This document shows, in pieces, positions 33,874-38,499 of a DNA stretch of 39,687 nt. Source of the DNA: a virus; the IMG/VR virus record IMGVR_UViG_3300010401_000053, positions 1-39,687 of that record; one strand, given 5' to 3'. A model generated the notes under the pieces. It saw nothing but the letters and a program-made list of their open reading frames with translations. It made no database searches and was not told where the DNA came from. Both the position numbers and the translations under genes were made by a program. Within the stretch, counting starts at the first letter, position 1. Every line of letters starts with the position of its first letter.

Positions 33874-34283
33874 CGCGAGTCCTCCGCCGGCCACCAGGTC
33901 ACCGCTTTGCGCCCCGTGTCCGAGTCGACTTCGGATGCTCCCGACGTGACGAGCCCCGCGCGCTCGAGCTCGGAGAGGCGGCGGCCGATGCGCTGGCGCC
34001 ACCACTCGATCCCCTTGGAATCGTCGCGGGCGCGCAGCTGGGCGAAGCTCGCCAGCGTCTTGCACGTCCGCCCCGGCCACTCGCGGACCAGGTCCAGCGC
34101 CGCACGCTGCAGCTCGCCCAGGCGCTGCGGGTCAGCCTTCAGCTCCGCCGCGGCCATCGCCGACGTGCGCTTGTCGCCGTCGGAGTAGAGCGGCCCCGTC
34201 GGCACCGGCCGCCCCGGCTCCGGGTCGAAGAGCGTGCGCATGGTCGAGCGCACCTCGAGAGGGTCCACGGCCTGGCGGCTCAT
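33870..34283 (-). CDS. Winged-helix-like DNA-binding protein
   Basis: A 137-residue protein. Residues 55-130 (LGELQRAALDLVREWPGRTC, KTLASFAQLRA, WWRQRIGRRLSELERAGLVT, DTGRKAVTWWP) follow the helix-helix-helix-wing layout of winged-helix proteins, ending in a beta wing. The ATG overlaps the HNH stop (ATGA). It may regulate the early operon or assist replication. Confidence 0.65.
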   Translation of the reverse strand: MSRQAVDPLEVRSTMRTLFDPEPGRPVPTGPLYSDGDKRTSAMAAAELKADPQRLGELQRAALDLVREWPGRTCKTLASFAQLRARDDSKGIEWWRQRIGRRLSELERAGLVTSGASEVDSDTGRKAVTWWPAEDSR

Positions 34284-34768
34284 GCGGTTGCCCCGATCGG
34301 GAGCGACGGCTGAATGCGTTCACGCCGCGCGAGGGCGAGCCTCGCCCGCAGCTCCGCCGTCACGGTGACGTGGCACGGGCGGCACAGCGTCCGCGCGTTC
34401 TCCAGGCTATGAGCTCCCCCCTCGGCCAGCGGGACGACGTGGTCGGCCTCCCAGCACGCCTCGGGAGGAAAGCCGAAGCCGAAACGAATCCCCTTCCGGC
34501 GTTGCTCGAGGATCCAGCGGCGAATCGCCTCGGTGTCGCGCTCGCACCGCGCGCACACGCCGTGATCGCGGCGCTCCACCGCTCGCCGGAAGCCGCCCTG
34601 GTGCGCCTGGGCGAGATAGGCATCGACGCACTCCTGGCTGCACCAGAGCCGCCGGCGACCTTCGCACTCCTTCCGACACCAGGTGCAGAGCCGGCCCCCG
34701 TTAGATCCCCGCTCGCCGTTCCTGCCACTGCGCAGGTCGTGGAGGCTCTTCCCCTGGCGCCGGGTCAC
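34280..34768 (-). CDS. HNH endonuclease with extra zinc sites
   Basis: A 162-residue protein from a GTG in a GTGA overlap. Zinc-type cysteines precede the nuclease: LCTWCRKECEGRR, LWCSQECVDAY and VCARCERD. The HNH core is CWEADHVVPLAEGGAHSLEN (D109-H110, N124) and CRPCHVTV (H133). HNH proteins with this N-terminal Cys region are found in phages and as free-standing nucleases. This is the second HNH gene in the genome, far from the terminase. Confidence 0.85.
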   Translation of the reverse strand: MTRRQGKSLHDLRSGRNGERGSNGGRLCTWCRKECEGRRRLWCSQECVDAYLAQAHQGGFRRAVERRDHGVCARCERDTEAIRRWILEQRRKGIRFGFGFPPEACWEADHVVPLAEGGAHSLENARTLCRPCHVTVTAELRARLALARRERIQPSLPIGATA

Positions 34769-35205
34769 CGGCGCGCCCCCGGATCGATGCCGAGCGTCTC
34801 GGTGAAGATCTCGATGCAGTGCCCGCACATCCCGCCGGCGCAGAGGAGGACTTCGCGGATGGCGTCGAGGAGCTTGCCCCGGTCCGACTGCTCGAGCGCC
34901 CCGACCTCGTCGCCCAGGCGGAACACCGTGCGGCACGGCTCGCACTGGTAGGCGGCGCCGCGCAGGCAGGGCCTCTGCCCCGTCGGTCGGCAGCATTCGA
35001 AGATGGCGAGCGACTCGACGCGGGCCCGGAGGGTGCGGGCGTGGACCTTCGGCTTCACCCCATTGCTCAGGTTGGGCGTGGAGCGGACGTCGTGCCCCAG
35101 GCGCCGGCACTCCATCACCTGGCTCGCCTTCTCCAGCTTCAGCGGCGCGACGGAGCCGACCACGTGCGTGTGGCACCAGTGGGCGACGCTGGCGGGAGAG
35201 TTCAT
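34765..35205 (-). CDS. Cys-rich early protein
   Basis: A 146-residue protein starting MNSPASVAHWCHTHVVGSVA in an ATGA overlap. ECCRPTGQRPC, YQCEPCRTVF and LLCAGGMCGHCIEIF supply many cysteines in C-x2-C-type pairs, so more than one zinc site is likely. The rest is helical and basic. No family recognised. Confidence 0.65.
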   Translation of the reverse strand: MNSPASVAHWCHTHVVGSVAPLKLEKASQVMECRRLGHDVRSTPNLSNGVKPKVHARTLRARVESLAIFECCRPTGQRPCLRGAAYQCEPCRTVFRLGDEVGALEQSDRGKLLDAIREVLLCAGGMCGHCIEIFTETLGIDPGARR

Positions 35206-35480
35206 GCGGCCTCGTGCACGTCGCGACGGTGACGCCGGAATGTCCCGGGCGATGGGAAGGTCATGTCGCAGCACTCGAGCGATTCAGGGACCGCCGGCGC
35301 GGTCACAGCGAGGCTCTGATTGCGCTGGGAGATGCCCCGGCAGACGGTCGAGCAGAAGCGGCGCGCCGACCAGGTCGTCCAGGAGTCGTGCGGGCGCGGC
35401 CAGAAGGGGCGGCGGCACACCTCGCACGCCTTGCGCTTCAGCTTCAGGCCGGAGTACGGTCCGCGCGCCGGCGAGCTCAT
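35202..35480 (-). CDS. Small zinc-finger-like protein, first gene of the early operon
   Basis: A 92-residue protein. The N-terminal ACEVCRRPFWPRPH and RRFCSTVCRG give two C-pairs (treble-clef-like). The C-terminal CCDMTFPSPGTFRRHRRDVH resembles a C2H2 finger. It is the first gene after the attP region, with a long hairpin just upstream (35501-35539). Likely nucleic-acid binding; could act as an early regulator. Confidence 0.65.
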   Translation of the reverse strand: MSSPARGPYSGLKLKRKACEVCRRPFWPRPHDSWTTWSARRFCSTVCRGISQRNQSLAVTAPAVPESLECCDMTFPSPGTFRRHRRDVHEAA

Positions 35481-35500
35481 GCGGCCCCCGAGAGGCCGAT

Positions 35501-35539
35501 AAGGCCCCTGGCTGGGTCCCGCCCCGAGCCAGGGGCCTT
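35501..35539. terminator. Long perfect hairpin upstream of the early operon
   Basis: AAGGCCCCTGGCT and AGCCAGGGGCCTT form a perfect 13-bp stem with a 13-base loop. It lies between attP and the first early gene. There is no T-tract on either side, so it may be an attenuator, a protein-binding site or a factor-dependent terminator rather than a simple terminator. Confidence 0.55.
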
Positions 35540-35961
35540 GCCGGTGGTAGGGAAGCTGGCGCGCCTCGCATTCACTCGAACCGGGAGCGGACCGTCACCG
35601 CCGAACCTGCGCGCAGACGGGTTCCCTTTGGCGCGTGCCTTGGCGGGCGTCCCATGGCGCCCGGTGTTGCAGGTTGAGCCGCCGCGGCGCACCGGAGGGA
35701 ACTGCACTGCGGGCTGTCCGGTGGTGCGGATCGCCTTGTTGCTCGCTTCGCCAAGGAGGGTCCCGTTCATGCGACCGGAACGGAGACCGGTTGGAAGGAG
35801 CCGCGGGCGGCCGACGTACGTCACAGACTCAGTCCGACGTGCCGGCTTTGGTGCCGTTGAGCACAGCAGAACTTCCGAGCCCGCGACCGCCGGCGGACGC
35901 TGGCGGACGATCGCGGTCCGACGTGTTACACTCCGCGGCCTTGAAAAACAGGCGGGGCCGG
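35540..35961. other. Non-coding region next to attP
   Basis: About 420 bases with no convincing gene on either strand. Open frames crossing it are artefacts that read through the tRNA segment. Near its right end, TTACACT (35926-35932), followed by a GC-rich stretch, resembles the -10 and discriminator of a stable-RNA promoter about 30 bases before the tRNA start. The matching -35 is weak. Confidence 0.5.
35927..35932 (+). promoter_or_regulatory. Possible -10 element for the tRNA-Arg 5' half
   Basis: TACACT, preceded by GTGT and followed by CTCCGCGGCC-like GC-rich bases, sits about 30 bases before the tRNA first base (35962), as in stable-RNA promoters. No good -35 hexamer is visible (CGGACG at the ideal distance). 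If integration replaces the host 5' half, this phage sequence would have to drive the tRNA gene. Confidence 0.3.
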
Positions 35962-36005
35962 GCGCCCATAGCTCAGTTGGATAGAGCGTCGGACTACGAA
36001 AGTCA
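35962..36005 (+). other. attP: attP core: 5' half of a tRNA-Arg(ACG) gene
   Basis: 35962-36000 matches a bacterial tRNA-Arg(ACG) from base 1 to the end of the anticodon loop: acceptor strand GCGCCCA, D-arm GCTCAGTTGGATAGAGC, anticodon 5' stem TCGGA and loop CTACGAA. From 36001 the sequence is unrelated, so the 3' half is missing. The integrase gene lies about 670 bases away. GACT-ACGAA-AGTC around the break is a small inverted repeat, as integrases use at the crossover. Site-specific recombination in the anticodon loop is inferred. Confidence 0.8.
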
Positions 36006-36086
36006 GGATTCAGACCGTCCCACGAGTAGAAATTAGCGGTCGTCACACCCTCGGAGTGCTCCCAACGACGGGCCCACACGTCACAC

Positions 36087-36647
36087 TTATGCATTGAGGC
36101 CCCCACGCATCGGAGCATGACGATGCGACCATCCGACGAATCTCTTGGCGGGGCTCTTCGCGAGGAATCTCACGTGGGCGGAATCGATCTGCGAGAGGCT
36201 CATGCGTGGCCTGACTCGCCTGCCACGGTCCGCCCGCCTCGTCACCCGGAATGCAAGGTCCGCGAGCTGATCGTGCGCCTCTTCGGCACGGCGGAACTCG
36301 CGTCGGAGCCGCTCCAGCTGGGATTCGCGAGCTCCGCAGAAGAACGGCGCATTGGCGATGACCTGCCTTGTCTGGCTGGCATGGTCAATGCCGCGGCCTT
36401 CTCTTCTCACCCGACCGGACAGCTCGTAATAGACCACGTCCAGACGGTCCAACACGAGCTGGAGCATGGCGCCCTCTACACGCCGCAGTGTCCGAGTGGT
36501 CACTCCTTCGCACCGGACCAGCCCCACGACATCGTCCCTTCTGACGCCCGCAAGCCTGGCCACATCGTCCTCATCGAGCCGGAACAGCTGCATGACGCCC
36601 ACGATCATGTCGACTGGGAACGCGCCCGCAAGCGCCTCGAGAGTCAC
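36087..36647 (-). CDS. Putative regulator next to the integrase
   Basis: About 186 residues from GTG at 36647, 20 bases after the integrase stop; the ATG at 36608 is an alternative. Codons end mostly in G/C, supporting this strand. Residues 20-60 (FRLDEDDVARLAGVRRDDVV, then TTRTLRRVEGAMLQLVLDRL) look like an HTH. The C-terminal half is Arg-rich and helical (LERLRREFRRAEEAHDQLAD). It is co-transcribed with the integrase and sits between it and attP, so an immunity or integration/excision regulator is plausible. No family recognised. Confidence 0.6.
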   Translation of the reverse strand: MTLEALAGAFPVDMIVGVMQLFRLDEDDVARLAGVRRDDVVGLVRCEGVTTRTLRRVEGAMLQLVLDRLDVVYYELSGRVRREGRGIDHASQTRQVIANAPFFCGARESQLERLRREFRRAEEAHDQLADLAFRVTRRADRGRRVRPRMSLSQIDSAHVRFLAKSPAKRFVGWSHRHAPMRGGLNA

Positions 36648-36666
36648 CTGGCCACCCGCAGACGGC

Positions 36667-37560
36667 TCAGGAGTTGCGATCGTCGCTCTGGCTTTGAGTC
36701 GACCGGTGACGAGGAGGGCCGATGAACTCGACCCCATCCTGCAGGAATGACTGGGACAGGTGGGCATAGCGCTGGGTCATTTTCATGGTGCCGTGCCCGA
36801 GGTACTTCTGCAGCCGATAGATGTCGCCGGTGTTCTGAACGTACCAGCTGGCGAAGGTGTGGCGCAGGTCGTGGAAGTGCAGATCGTCGAGCCCCGCCTT
36901 GCGTCTGGCCGATTCGAACGCGGTCCGGATCGACGTGACCGCCTCCCCGCGGAACCCGAAGATCCGATCGTCCGCCGGCCGCTTGCGGATCCCGCGCAGG
37001 CAACGCGCCAGCTCTGGCGACAGCGGCAGCGATCGCGCCTTCCTCGTCTTCGTGGTTTCCTTTCGGAACGTCAGCATGCCGTAGGGCGGGACATCCCAGT
37101 TGACGTCGCTCCATCGCAACGACAGCAGTTCGCTGAGCCGGCCCCCCGTGTGCAACGCCGCGACCAAGATCGGCTTCAGGTGCTCCGACGCTGCCAGGAT
37201 GAGCCGGTCGGCCTCCGTCTCCGTCAGGAAACGCATGCGGCCCGGGCTCTCCTTGAACGTCTCGACGTCGCGCGCCGGGTTCGGACCCGGATGATGGCCA
37301 CGCTTGATCGCCCAGGAGAAGAATGCCGACAGTGTGGCGATCTGCCGGTTGACCGTCGACTTCGAGATCCCATCCTCGAGGCGCGCCGCCTGGAAGGCCT
37401 CGATGCGCAGCAGCGTGATGTCCTTCAGACGCAGGTCGCCGATCGAGCGCTCGAGGATCCGGATGTTGCTGGCCGTGGTGCGCCGGTCCTCCCAGCGCAG
37501 GTTGTGATGCTGGATGAACTCGGCCGTCAGTTCTCGGAACCGCGGACCCCCGAAAAACAT
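36667..37560 (-). CDS. int: Tyrosine integrase
   Basis: A 297-residue site-specific recombinase. The N-terminal core-binding domain spans about 1-100 (STVNRQIATLSAFFSWAIKR). Catalytic residues are R141 (HTGGRLSELLSLRW), a lysine in RKETTKTRK (K171 or K174), H230-x2-R233 (FHDLRHTFASWY), H256 (YLGHGTMKM) and nucleophile Y265 (TQRYAHLS). It lies about 0.7 kb from attP and is driven by a near-consensus promoter. It would insert the phage into the host tRNA-Arg gene. Confidence 0.95.
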   Translation of the reverse strand: MFFGGPRFRELTAEFIQHHNLRWEDRRTTASNIRILERSIGDLRLKDITLLRIEAFQAARLEDGISKSTVNRQIATLSAFFSWAIKRGHHPGPNPARDVETFKESPGRMRFLTETEADRLILAASEHLKPILVAALHTGGRLSELLSLRWSDVNWDVPPYGMLTFRKETTKTRKARSLPLSPELARCLRGIRKRPADDRIFGFRGEAVTSIRTAFESARRKAGLDDLHFHDLRHTFASWYVQNTGDIYRLQKYLGHGTMKMTQRYAHLSQSFLQDGVEFIGPPRHRSTQSQSDDRNS

Positions 37561-37690
37561 CGCCGTGCTCCTGTGGGGCGGGATGGAGTGCGGCGTATGT
37601 ACGCGAATTCTCCGCGCCGGGCAACAACAATTTTAAAGAGCCGCCCGGGACCGCGGACGATGACCTGTCGAGGGCAACCTGCCAGGGTTT

Positions 37691-37710
37691 GCCCCCGCGG
37701 CCCCGGGGGC
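37691..37710. terminator. GC-rich hairpin ahead of the integrase
   Basis: GCCCCCG-CGGCCC-CGGGGGC: a 7-bp perfect stem with a 6-base loop between the promoter at 37776-37804 and the integrase start. No T-tract follows. It may attenuate integrase transcription or simply shape the leader RNA. Confidence 0.35.
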
Positions 37711-37775
37711 TCAGCTCATGTTCGGAGGTGTTACGGGTTGCCGTCGTCATCGCGCCCTGGCAGGTCACGAGGCGC

Positions 37776-37804
37776 TATATACGCTTCGGAGGGAGCACTG
37801 TCAA
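37776..37804 (-). promoter_or_regulatory. Strong sigma70 promoter reading toward the integrase
   Basis: On the minus strand: TTGACA (37804-37799), exactly 17 bases, then TATATA (37781-37776). The -35 is a perfect consensus and the -10 matches five of six. This is the best promoter seen in the window. A leader of about 210 bases precedes the integrase start at 37560. The 312-base gap 37561-37872 holds this promoter, the operator and the hairpin, and no gene. Confidence 0.75.
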
Positions 37805-37819
37805 GTGCCTCCTGACAGT
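37797..37819. promoter_or_regulatory. Inverted-repeat operator overlapping the -35
   Basis: ACTGTCA-AGTGCCTCC-TGACAGT: perfect 7-bp half-sites separated by 9 bases (23 bp in total, centre spacing suited to a dimeric repressor). One half-site contains the -35 TTGACA of the integrase promoter, so bound protein would block it. The cognate repressor is not known; the HTH proteins of this genome are candidates. Confidence 0.6.
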
Positions 37820-37872
37820 ATTTTCAGGGATACCCCGACTAGGCAGGACTGCATAGGGCCCCGTTTTTCGGG

Positions 37873-38499
37873 TCAGGCGAAGGGGACCCCGGTCCGCAGG
37901 AAGTTCGCCGCGGCCGACCATGCGAGCCCCGGCCGCTCATAGTCGCCGTGCTCGTAGCCGGGGCACTCGAAGTCGATCACCGAGCTCGGCCGGCGGGTGA
38001 ACCCCTTCCAGCCGGACTGGCCGAAGGTCGACATCTTCACGACGTCGTCCTCGCGCGAGAAGAGGTTCACCGCCCGGGTGTAGTGCCCCGCCTTGTCCGA
38101 CCAGTCGTCGCGGCTGGAGAGGATCGAGCCCATCAGCACGACGCGGTCCCAGAACACGCGCGGCCCGGGCGCGTCCGTCATCGCGTGATCGACCAGGTAG
38201 CTCCCCATCGAGTAGCCGACGCCGTCGAGGACGATGCCGCCGCCGTGCAGCTCCTCGAGCTCGAGCAGCTGCTGCGCCACCCACCGCTGGAAGCGTCCGA
38301 CAAGGCGCCGGCGCACGGCGCCCCCGACCCACGGAAAGCGGACGGCGAAGGCCGACGTCCAGCCATACTCCCAGAGCAGCACGGCGACGATCTCCGGGTT
38401 GCCGGCGCGCAGCTGCGGCTCGAGCCCGGCGGCCCAGGCCTCCGCCTCTTCCTTGCTCGTGTGGAGGCCGTGGGCGAGGATGACGGCGCGCTTCGGCAT
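37873..38499 (-). CDS. Alpha/beta hydrolase (serine hydrolase)
   Basis: A 208-residue protein. The oxyanion-type start AVILAHGLHTSKEEAEAW, nucleophile elbow GVGYSMGSYLVDHA (S97 in G-Y-S-M-G), acid in FSREDDVVKM (D151 or D152) and histidine in CPGYEHGDYERPG (H184) form a full catalytic triad in order. No signal peptide. Start at the ATG at 38499; a GTG at 38541 is an alternative. It is the last gene of the late strand, just before the integrase promoter. Possible esterase, deacylase or lysis accessory; substrate unknown. Confidence 0.82.
   Translation of the reverse strand: MPKRAVILAHGLHTSKEEAEAWAAGLEPQLRAGNPEIVAVLLWEYGWTSAFAVRFPWVGGAVRRRLVGRFQRWVAQQLLELEELHGGGIVLDGVGYSMGSYLVDHAMTDAPGPRVFWDRVVLMGSILSSRDDWSDKAGHYTRAVNLFSREDDVVKMSTFGQSGWKGFTRRPSSVIDFECPGYEHGDYERPGLAWSAAANFLRTGVPFA

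Follow-up and report, generated by a model that had tools for sequence, protein, structure and literature searches.

A circular phage genome carries the 5' half of tRNA-Arg(ACG), a probable attP with a candidate promoter for the rebuilt host tRNA

Integration at the 3' part of a tRNA gene is typical, and 5' targeting is described as considerably less frequent (PMC6563490, citing Zhao & Williams 2002). Phages with a 3'-half attP, such as Boilgate (PMC10865867), use a tyrosine integrase, target a tRNA gene and rebuild the tRNA at one junction; what they bring is the 3' half, and the host gene thereby retains its own promoter and 5' half. The opposite geometry is found in the pTN3-type plasmids of the Thermococcales (Cossu et al. 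2017, PMC5495485; PMC8371274). The attP of these archaeal elements is a tRNA 5' half with 41 bp common to attB (PMC5495485, PMC8371274), and integration rebuilds a complete tRNA that is separated from its original promoter (PMC5495485). Integration disrupts the integrase gene of these plasmids, within which attP is located, and the integrase promoter then drives the tRNA. For bacteria, expression of a rebuilt tRNA from element DNA has rarely been encountered (PMC8371274). A further arrangement is tRNA-dependent lysogeny, described for Fionnbharth and other phages (PMC10865867), in which attP shares ~10 bp, a whole phage tRNA compensates, and the viability of the lysogen depends on this phage-driven tRNA, whose own promoter was shown with a reporter.

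The window analysed here is the whole of IMG/VR record IMGVR_UViG_3300010401_000053 (39,687 nt), a circular genome closed by a 123-bp identical terminal repeat. It codes for a large terminase, a portal, a major head protein, a head-tail adaptor, a ParB-like protein and only one tyrosine integrase. Altogether our results make it very likely that positions 35962-36000 form the core of attP and that this temperate phage integrates in reverse, through the anticodon loop, into a host tRNA-Arg(ACG) gene, leaving the rebuilt tRNA on a phage promoter (Table 1). As in the case that PMC6563490 cites from Zhao & Williams 2002, recombination would occur at the 5' part of a tRNA gene and not at its 3' part; here the phage genome is complete and circular. 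The likeness to pTN3-type plasmids lies in a 5'-half attP and a complete tRNA rebuilt away from its original promoter, but here the integrase is intact and convergent with the half, and a separate promoter is predicted. A suicidal integrase of the pTN3 type was considered and ruled out, as the integrase gene (36667-37560) lies outside 35962-36000. Boilgate-type phages differ in the half that they carry. As in Fionnbharth-type phages, the viability of the lysogen would depend on a phage-driven tRNA, but the phage would supply half a tRNA with a candidate promoter in cis; tRNA-dependent lysogeny itself was ruled out by the 39-nt core and the lack of a complete tRNA in the window. Although rare by published accounts, the reversed geometry is thus already known, and phages related to this one share it. 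To this the locus adds a phage genome that is complete and circular, a clade of integrases whose phages retain both the 5' half and a -10-like box, and, in a plausible host phylum, fossil-like traces at the same tRNA gene.

Table 1. Features of the putative attachment region (positions in the window)
Feature	Position	Strand	Basis or remark
Phage DNA without a confident gene call; predicted attR arm, upstream of the host tRNA after integration	35481..35961	.	GC3-based gene picture
AGTCCGACG, copy of a core half-site, putative integrase accessory site	35831..35839	+	131 bp upstream of tRNA start
GGTCCGACG, same 9-mer as AGTCCGACG with one mismatch	35915..35923	+	
Extended -10-like box TGTTACACT, candidate promoter for the rebuilt tRNA	35924..35932	+	p=0.003 against dinucleotide shuffles
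Probable discriminator and 5' leader; RNase P would remove it in the lysogen	35933..35961	+	Position between the box and tRNA nucleotide 1
attP core, 5' half of tRNA-Arg(ACG) up to and including the 7-nt anticodon loop	35962..36000	+	39/39 identity, 12 intact genes
Anticodon loop CTACGAA, likely 7-bp crossover (overlap) region, with the anticodon stem flanking	35994..36000	+	Identity ends here; crossover position predicted
attP-integrase spacer; would become the attL arm	36001..36666	.	666 bp
Tyrosine integrase, 297 aa	36667..37560	-	Convergent with the tRNA half

The core sequence, GCGCCCATAGCTCAGTTGGATAGAGCGTCGGACTACGAA, runs from nucleotide 1 of tRNA-Arg(ACG) to the end of the anticodon loop. 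A search of species-representative bacterial genomes (one per species) with an exact 38-mer returned 13 stretches, 12 of them complete tRNA-Arg(ACG) genes and one an orphan half; the carriers include three MAGs named Rokubacteria or Rokuibacteriota, as well as Myxococcales, Nitrospirae, Syntrophaceae and others. In each comparison with the 12 host genes, the identity starts at the tRNA 5' end, with 0 nt shared upstream, and runs for exactly 39 nt of the gene. A 39-nt match with sharp edges on both sides cannot be chance, and a match that reaches the mature 5' end and goes no further is what would be expected of a piece kept for rebuilding a functional tRNA. The initial annotation had described a match that starts at the first tRNA base and stops after the anticodon loop, and this proved exact. 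Similarity to the tRNA 3' half past position 36000, which the annotation had named as evidence against its reading, does not reach significance (p 0.21-0.71 against shuffles). A degenerate 3' half was entertained there because AAGTCAGGATTC looks like AAGGTCAGAGGTTC by eye, and was rejected when the alignment score did not rise above shuffles. ARAGORN found no complete tRNA anywhere in the window, and Rfam had no match at the 35962-36000 site.

The view that this segment serves as attP is supported by the circular genome with its single integrase and by two other viral contigs, in which a related integrase likewise adjoins the same half. The half ends after CTACGAA, 666 bp from the integrase, and the anticodon loop is a canonical sublocation for att sites (PMC8371274). 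The integrase matches PF00589 (E 4.8e-27), Int_N and phrog_1 (E 7.3e-69), and residues R141, H230, R233, H256 and Y265 are invariant in the window and the two contigs; a tyrosine integrase with its catalytic residues is one mark of the class of tRNA-targeting temperate phages. Exact copies of AGTCCGACG occur only twice in the window, at 35831 and within the core at 35987, and similar 9-mers also cluster around attP in both related contigs. These clustered copies may be extra integrase sites, which is no more than a lead. We infer the position of the crossover, the use of this attP by the phage and the activity of the promoter.

In the model that we favor, the integrase would recombine attP with attB within the 7-bp anticodon loop. 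The displaced host 5' half would be left at attL as a dead stub beside position 36001, on the integrase side, and at attR phage DNA up to 36000 would be joined to the host 3' half to give a complete tRNA-Arg. This rebuilt gene would be driven by a phage promoter, most likely the extended -10 at 35924-35932, with a leader of ~20 nt that RNase P would then cut off; excision would restore the host gene. When the junctions were assembled in silico, the window's half joined to host 3' halves was called tRNA-Arg(ACG) by ARAGORN in 12/12 cases, and the attL chimera yielded no tRNA-Arg. In this respect the window fits a reversed element, with the 5' half only and, in silico, a complete tRNA at attR and none at attL. 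The initial annotation had proposed that integration swaps the host 5' half and promoter for the phage copy. The geometry of this proposal finds support in integrated elements elsewhere, which show an orphan half, an element and a complete tRNA. Prophages of this type at other sites, which the annotation held would speak against it, did not come to light; nor did an integrated copy at any site, and control of a host tRNA by this particular phage is thus something that we infer. Such an arrangement, in which a foreign promoter takes charge of a host tRNA gene, is the reverse of the usual safe one.

The anatomy of the host gene suggests why an element of this kind would need a promoter. In most of the genomes examined from the phylum that contains the Rokubacteria, tRNA-Arg(ACG) begins 2-15 nt (mostly 2-5 nt) after tRNA-Ser(GCT), a gap too short to hold a separate promoter for it. 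Integration at the 5' half cuts tRNA-Arg(ACG) from this operon, so if the tRNA is essential the element must bring a promoter; a 3'-half element would leave the Ser-Arg arrangement intact. The host is most likely a member of this phylum, and a member of the Myxococcota is possible. Two slightly different Ser-Ser-Arg-Ser-Ser tRNA clusters were seen in one MAG (G003:C45 and G003:C49; L222 and L225), which may be a mixed bin.

The -10-like box TGT-TACACT, whose hexamer spans 35927-35932, ends 29 nt before the tRNA. TGCTAGACT stands in the equivalent short interval of both related contigs, L042 (IMGVR_UViG_3300031949_000097; p 0.014) and L073 (IMGVR_UViG_3300012207_000146; p 0.013, both against dinucleotide shuffles). 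A promoter-like signal is also present when 17 5'-half sites are pooled (p<=0.001) and is strongest in the three phages of the window's integrase clade. The annotation's -10-like element at a fitting distance accordingly stands as a sequence that recurs in these relatives, but no -35/-10 pair in 35480-36700 reaches the consensus threshold. The region has no -35 match either, and this favors the most durable alternative, in which attP is as described and the rebuilt tRNA is transcribed by read-through from phage DNA farther upstream, with no dedicated promoter at 35924-35932. Read-through from the integrase is reported for archaeal pTN3 (PMC8371274), and it is likely in L101, L122, L130 and the CALDSV element described below, where the integrase points at the half and ends ~10-80 bp upstream of it. 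In the window, however, the integrase lies on the far side and points the other way, the closest ORF upstream (35202-35480) is encoded by the minus strand, and L042 and L073 also have a -10-like box. We therefore regard read-through as unlikely here and favor a dedicated promoter at 35924-35932. That arm has no identity to the host flanks directly upstream of the tRNA in the 12 host genes. Just upstream of the minus-strand ORF 35202-35480, a strong inverted repeat occupies 35496-35544 (21-nt arms, 86% complementary); it may insulate the attR arm.

The two related contigs came from a search of IMG/VR with a degenerate 5'-half pattern, which returned 50 stretches, 10 of them (on nine contigs) with a 5' half and without the rest of the tRNA. 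As a lone query the window integrase found no viral relatives, and 34000-38000 has no near relatives among named phages; viral integrase relatives were reached through this pattern and then through an alignment of three integrases. The integrases of L042 and L073 are 54% and 60% identical to that of the window, and in both contigs the same tRNA-Arg 5' half is met by an integrase converging from its 3' side. The integrase tree groups the three in a clade with full support. The window's spacer is ~590-620 bp longer than those of L042 (~75 bp) and L073 (~48 bp), and it contains overlapping ORFs on both strands (36087-36767 minus and 36117-36725 plus), the former with no match in Pfam or PHROG.

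Decayed tRNA genes occur in phages, and the fragment could be pictured as a relic of a complete phage tRNA or as a captured scrap of host DNA that is no longer an attachment site. This we consider very improbable: the 39 nt are complete, with ends that coincide exactly with tRNA nucleotide 1 and the end of the loop, no significant 3' remnant follows, and L042 and L073 keep the same half beside a related integrase. Equally hard to credit is an assembly of an integrated prophage with its host stub, in which 35540-35961 would be host DNA, for although an orphan 5' half at attL would look alike locally, the terminal repeat closes one circle with a single half, the upstream DNA is unlike the direct upstream flank of all 12 host genes, and L042 and L073 are arranged alike.

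Integrated elements with the geometry predicted here occur in other bacterial genomes. In CALDSV010000028.1, a MAG contig, 17.4 kb separate an orphan 5' half (59349-59386) from a complete tRNA-Arg (from 41929) on the same strand; the gene for a tyrosine integrase with 34% identity to that of the window ends ~80 bp upstream of the complete gene. L006, from a related genome, matches this contig for more than 1 kb downstream from the tRNA and not upstream, as expected if an element had replaced the upstream side. This best-documented integrated element counts against a close parallel in one respect, its integrase being on the opposite side of the half from that of the window. In G078, from the phylum of the Rokubacteria MAG G004, an orphan 5' half comes immediately after tRNA-Ser(GCT). 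The complete tRNA-Arg lies 1.1 kb farther on; the DNA before it is unrelated and includes a -10-like TATGCT box 10 nt from the gene. The 1.1-kb insert holds one chromosomal gene, conserved in 36/40 genomes of the family, and no integrase, which makes it a fossil at best; the arrangement may be a rearranged fossil or may have another cause. G075, of the same phylum, also has a tRNA-Arg(ACG) without a tRNA-Ser neighbour; the sequence that precedes it, GGTGTACGCTGAATGCCCGT, is close to GGTGTATGCTAAGTGCCCGT of G078, and the remaining upstream DNA differs. Integrase searches of the Rokubacteria-containing phylum and the Myxococcota found no integrated copy of the phage. Relatives in 3/95 genomes of the former (E<=1e-45) and 1/195 of the latter (E<=1e-55) are more distant than the three phages are among themselves, and terminase matches in the former phylum are only 38-42% identical, with no prophage copy.

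Among 80 contigs with related integrases, a sample biased towards the window's integrase, a 5' half was found in 7-8 and a 3' half in ~19, and the halves in L118 and L130 may be decayed tRNAs. The initial annotation's remark that most phages carry the 3' part agrees with the literature, with the caveat that 7-8 of ~27 tRNA-half sites in this biased sample are of the 5' type. The 5'-half habit is scattered over the integrase tree; a single origin was considered and is unsupported, since 6 parsimony changes are needed and at least 2 are forced by supported branches. Two layouts recur. The integrase is convergent on the far side of the half in the window, L042 and L073, and directly upstream and co-directional in CALDSV, L101, L122 and L130, in which transcription of the integrase may carry on into the tRNA. 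If 5'-half integration recurs as often as the small survey here implies, there would be a set of prophages in control of a host tRNA, and prophage finders that seek only displaced 3' fragments would miss boundaries. A bolder reading, which we consider quite doubtful, is that a tRNA front half with a promoter is a recurrent strategy of several origins among phage tyrosine integrases. In hosts with tRNA-Arg(ACG) inside a tRNA operon, this essential single-copy tRNA would then be run by the prophage, partial prophage loss would be lethal, and the state of the phage could tune how CGN codons are decoded.

Further viral contigs (L101, L122, L130, L141, L159 and L177) carry 5' halves of tRNA-Met/Ile(CAT) or tRNA-Arg(CCT) with an integrase pointing at the half. 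One contig, IMGVR_UViG_3300037153_000425, has two tRNA-Arg 5' halves (L066 and L068, at ~16742 and ~52898), 36 kb apart, with the same flanks and with integrases that are related but not identical, and looks like tandem related prophages.
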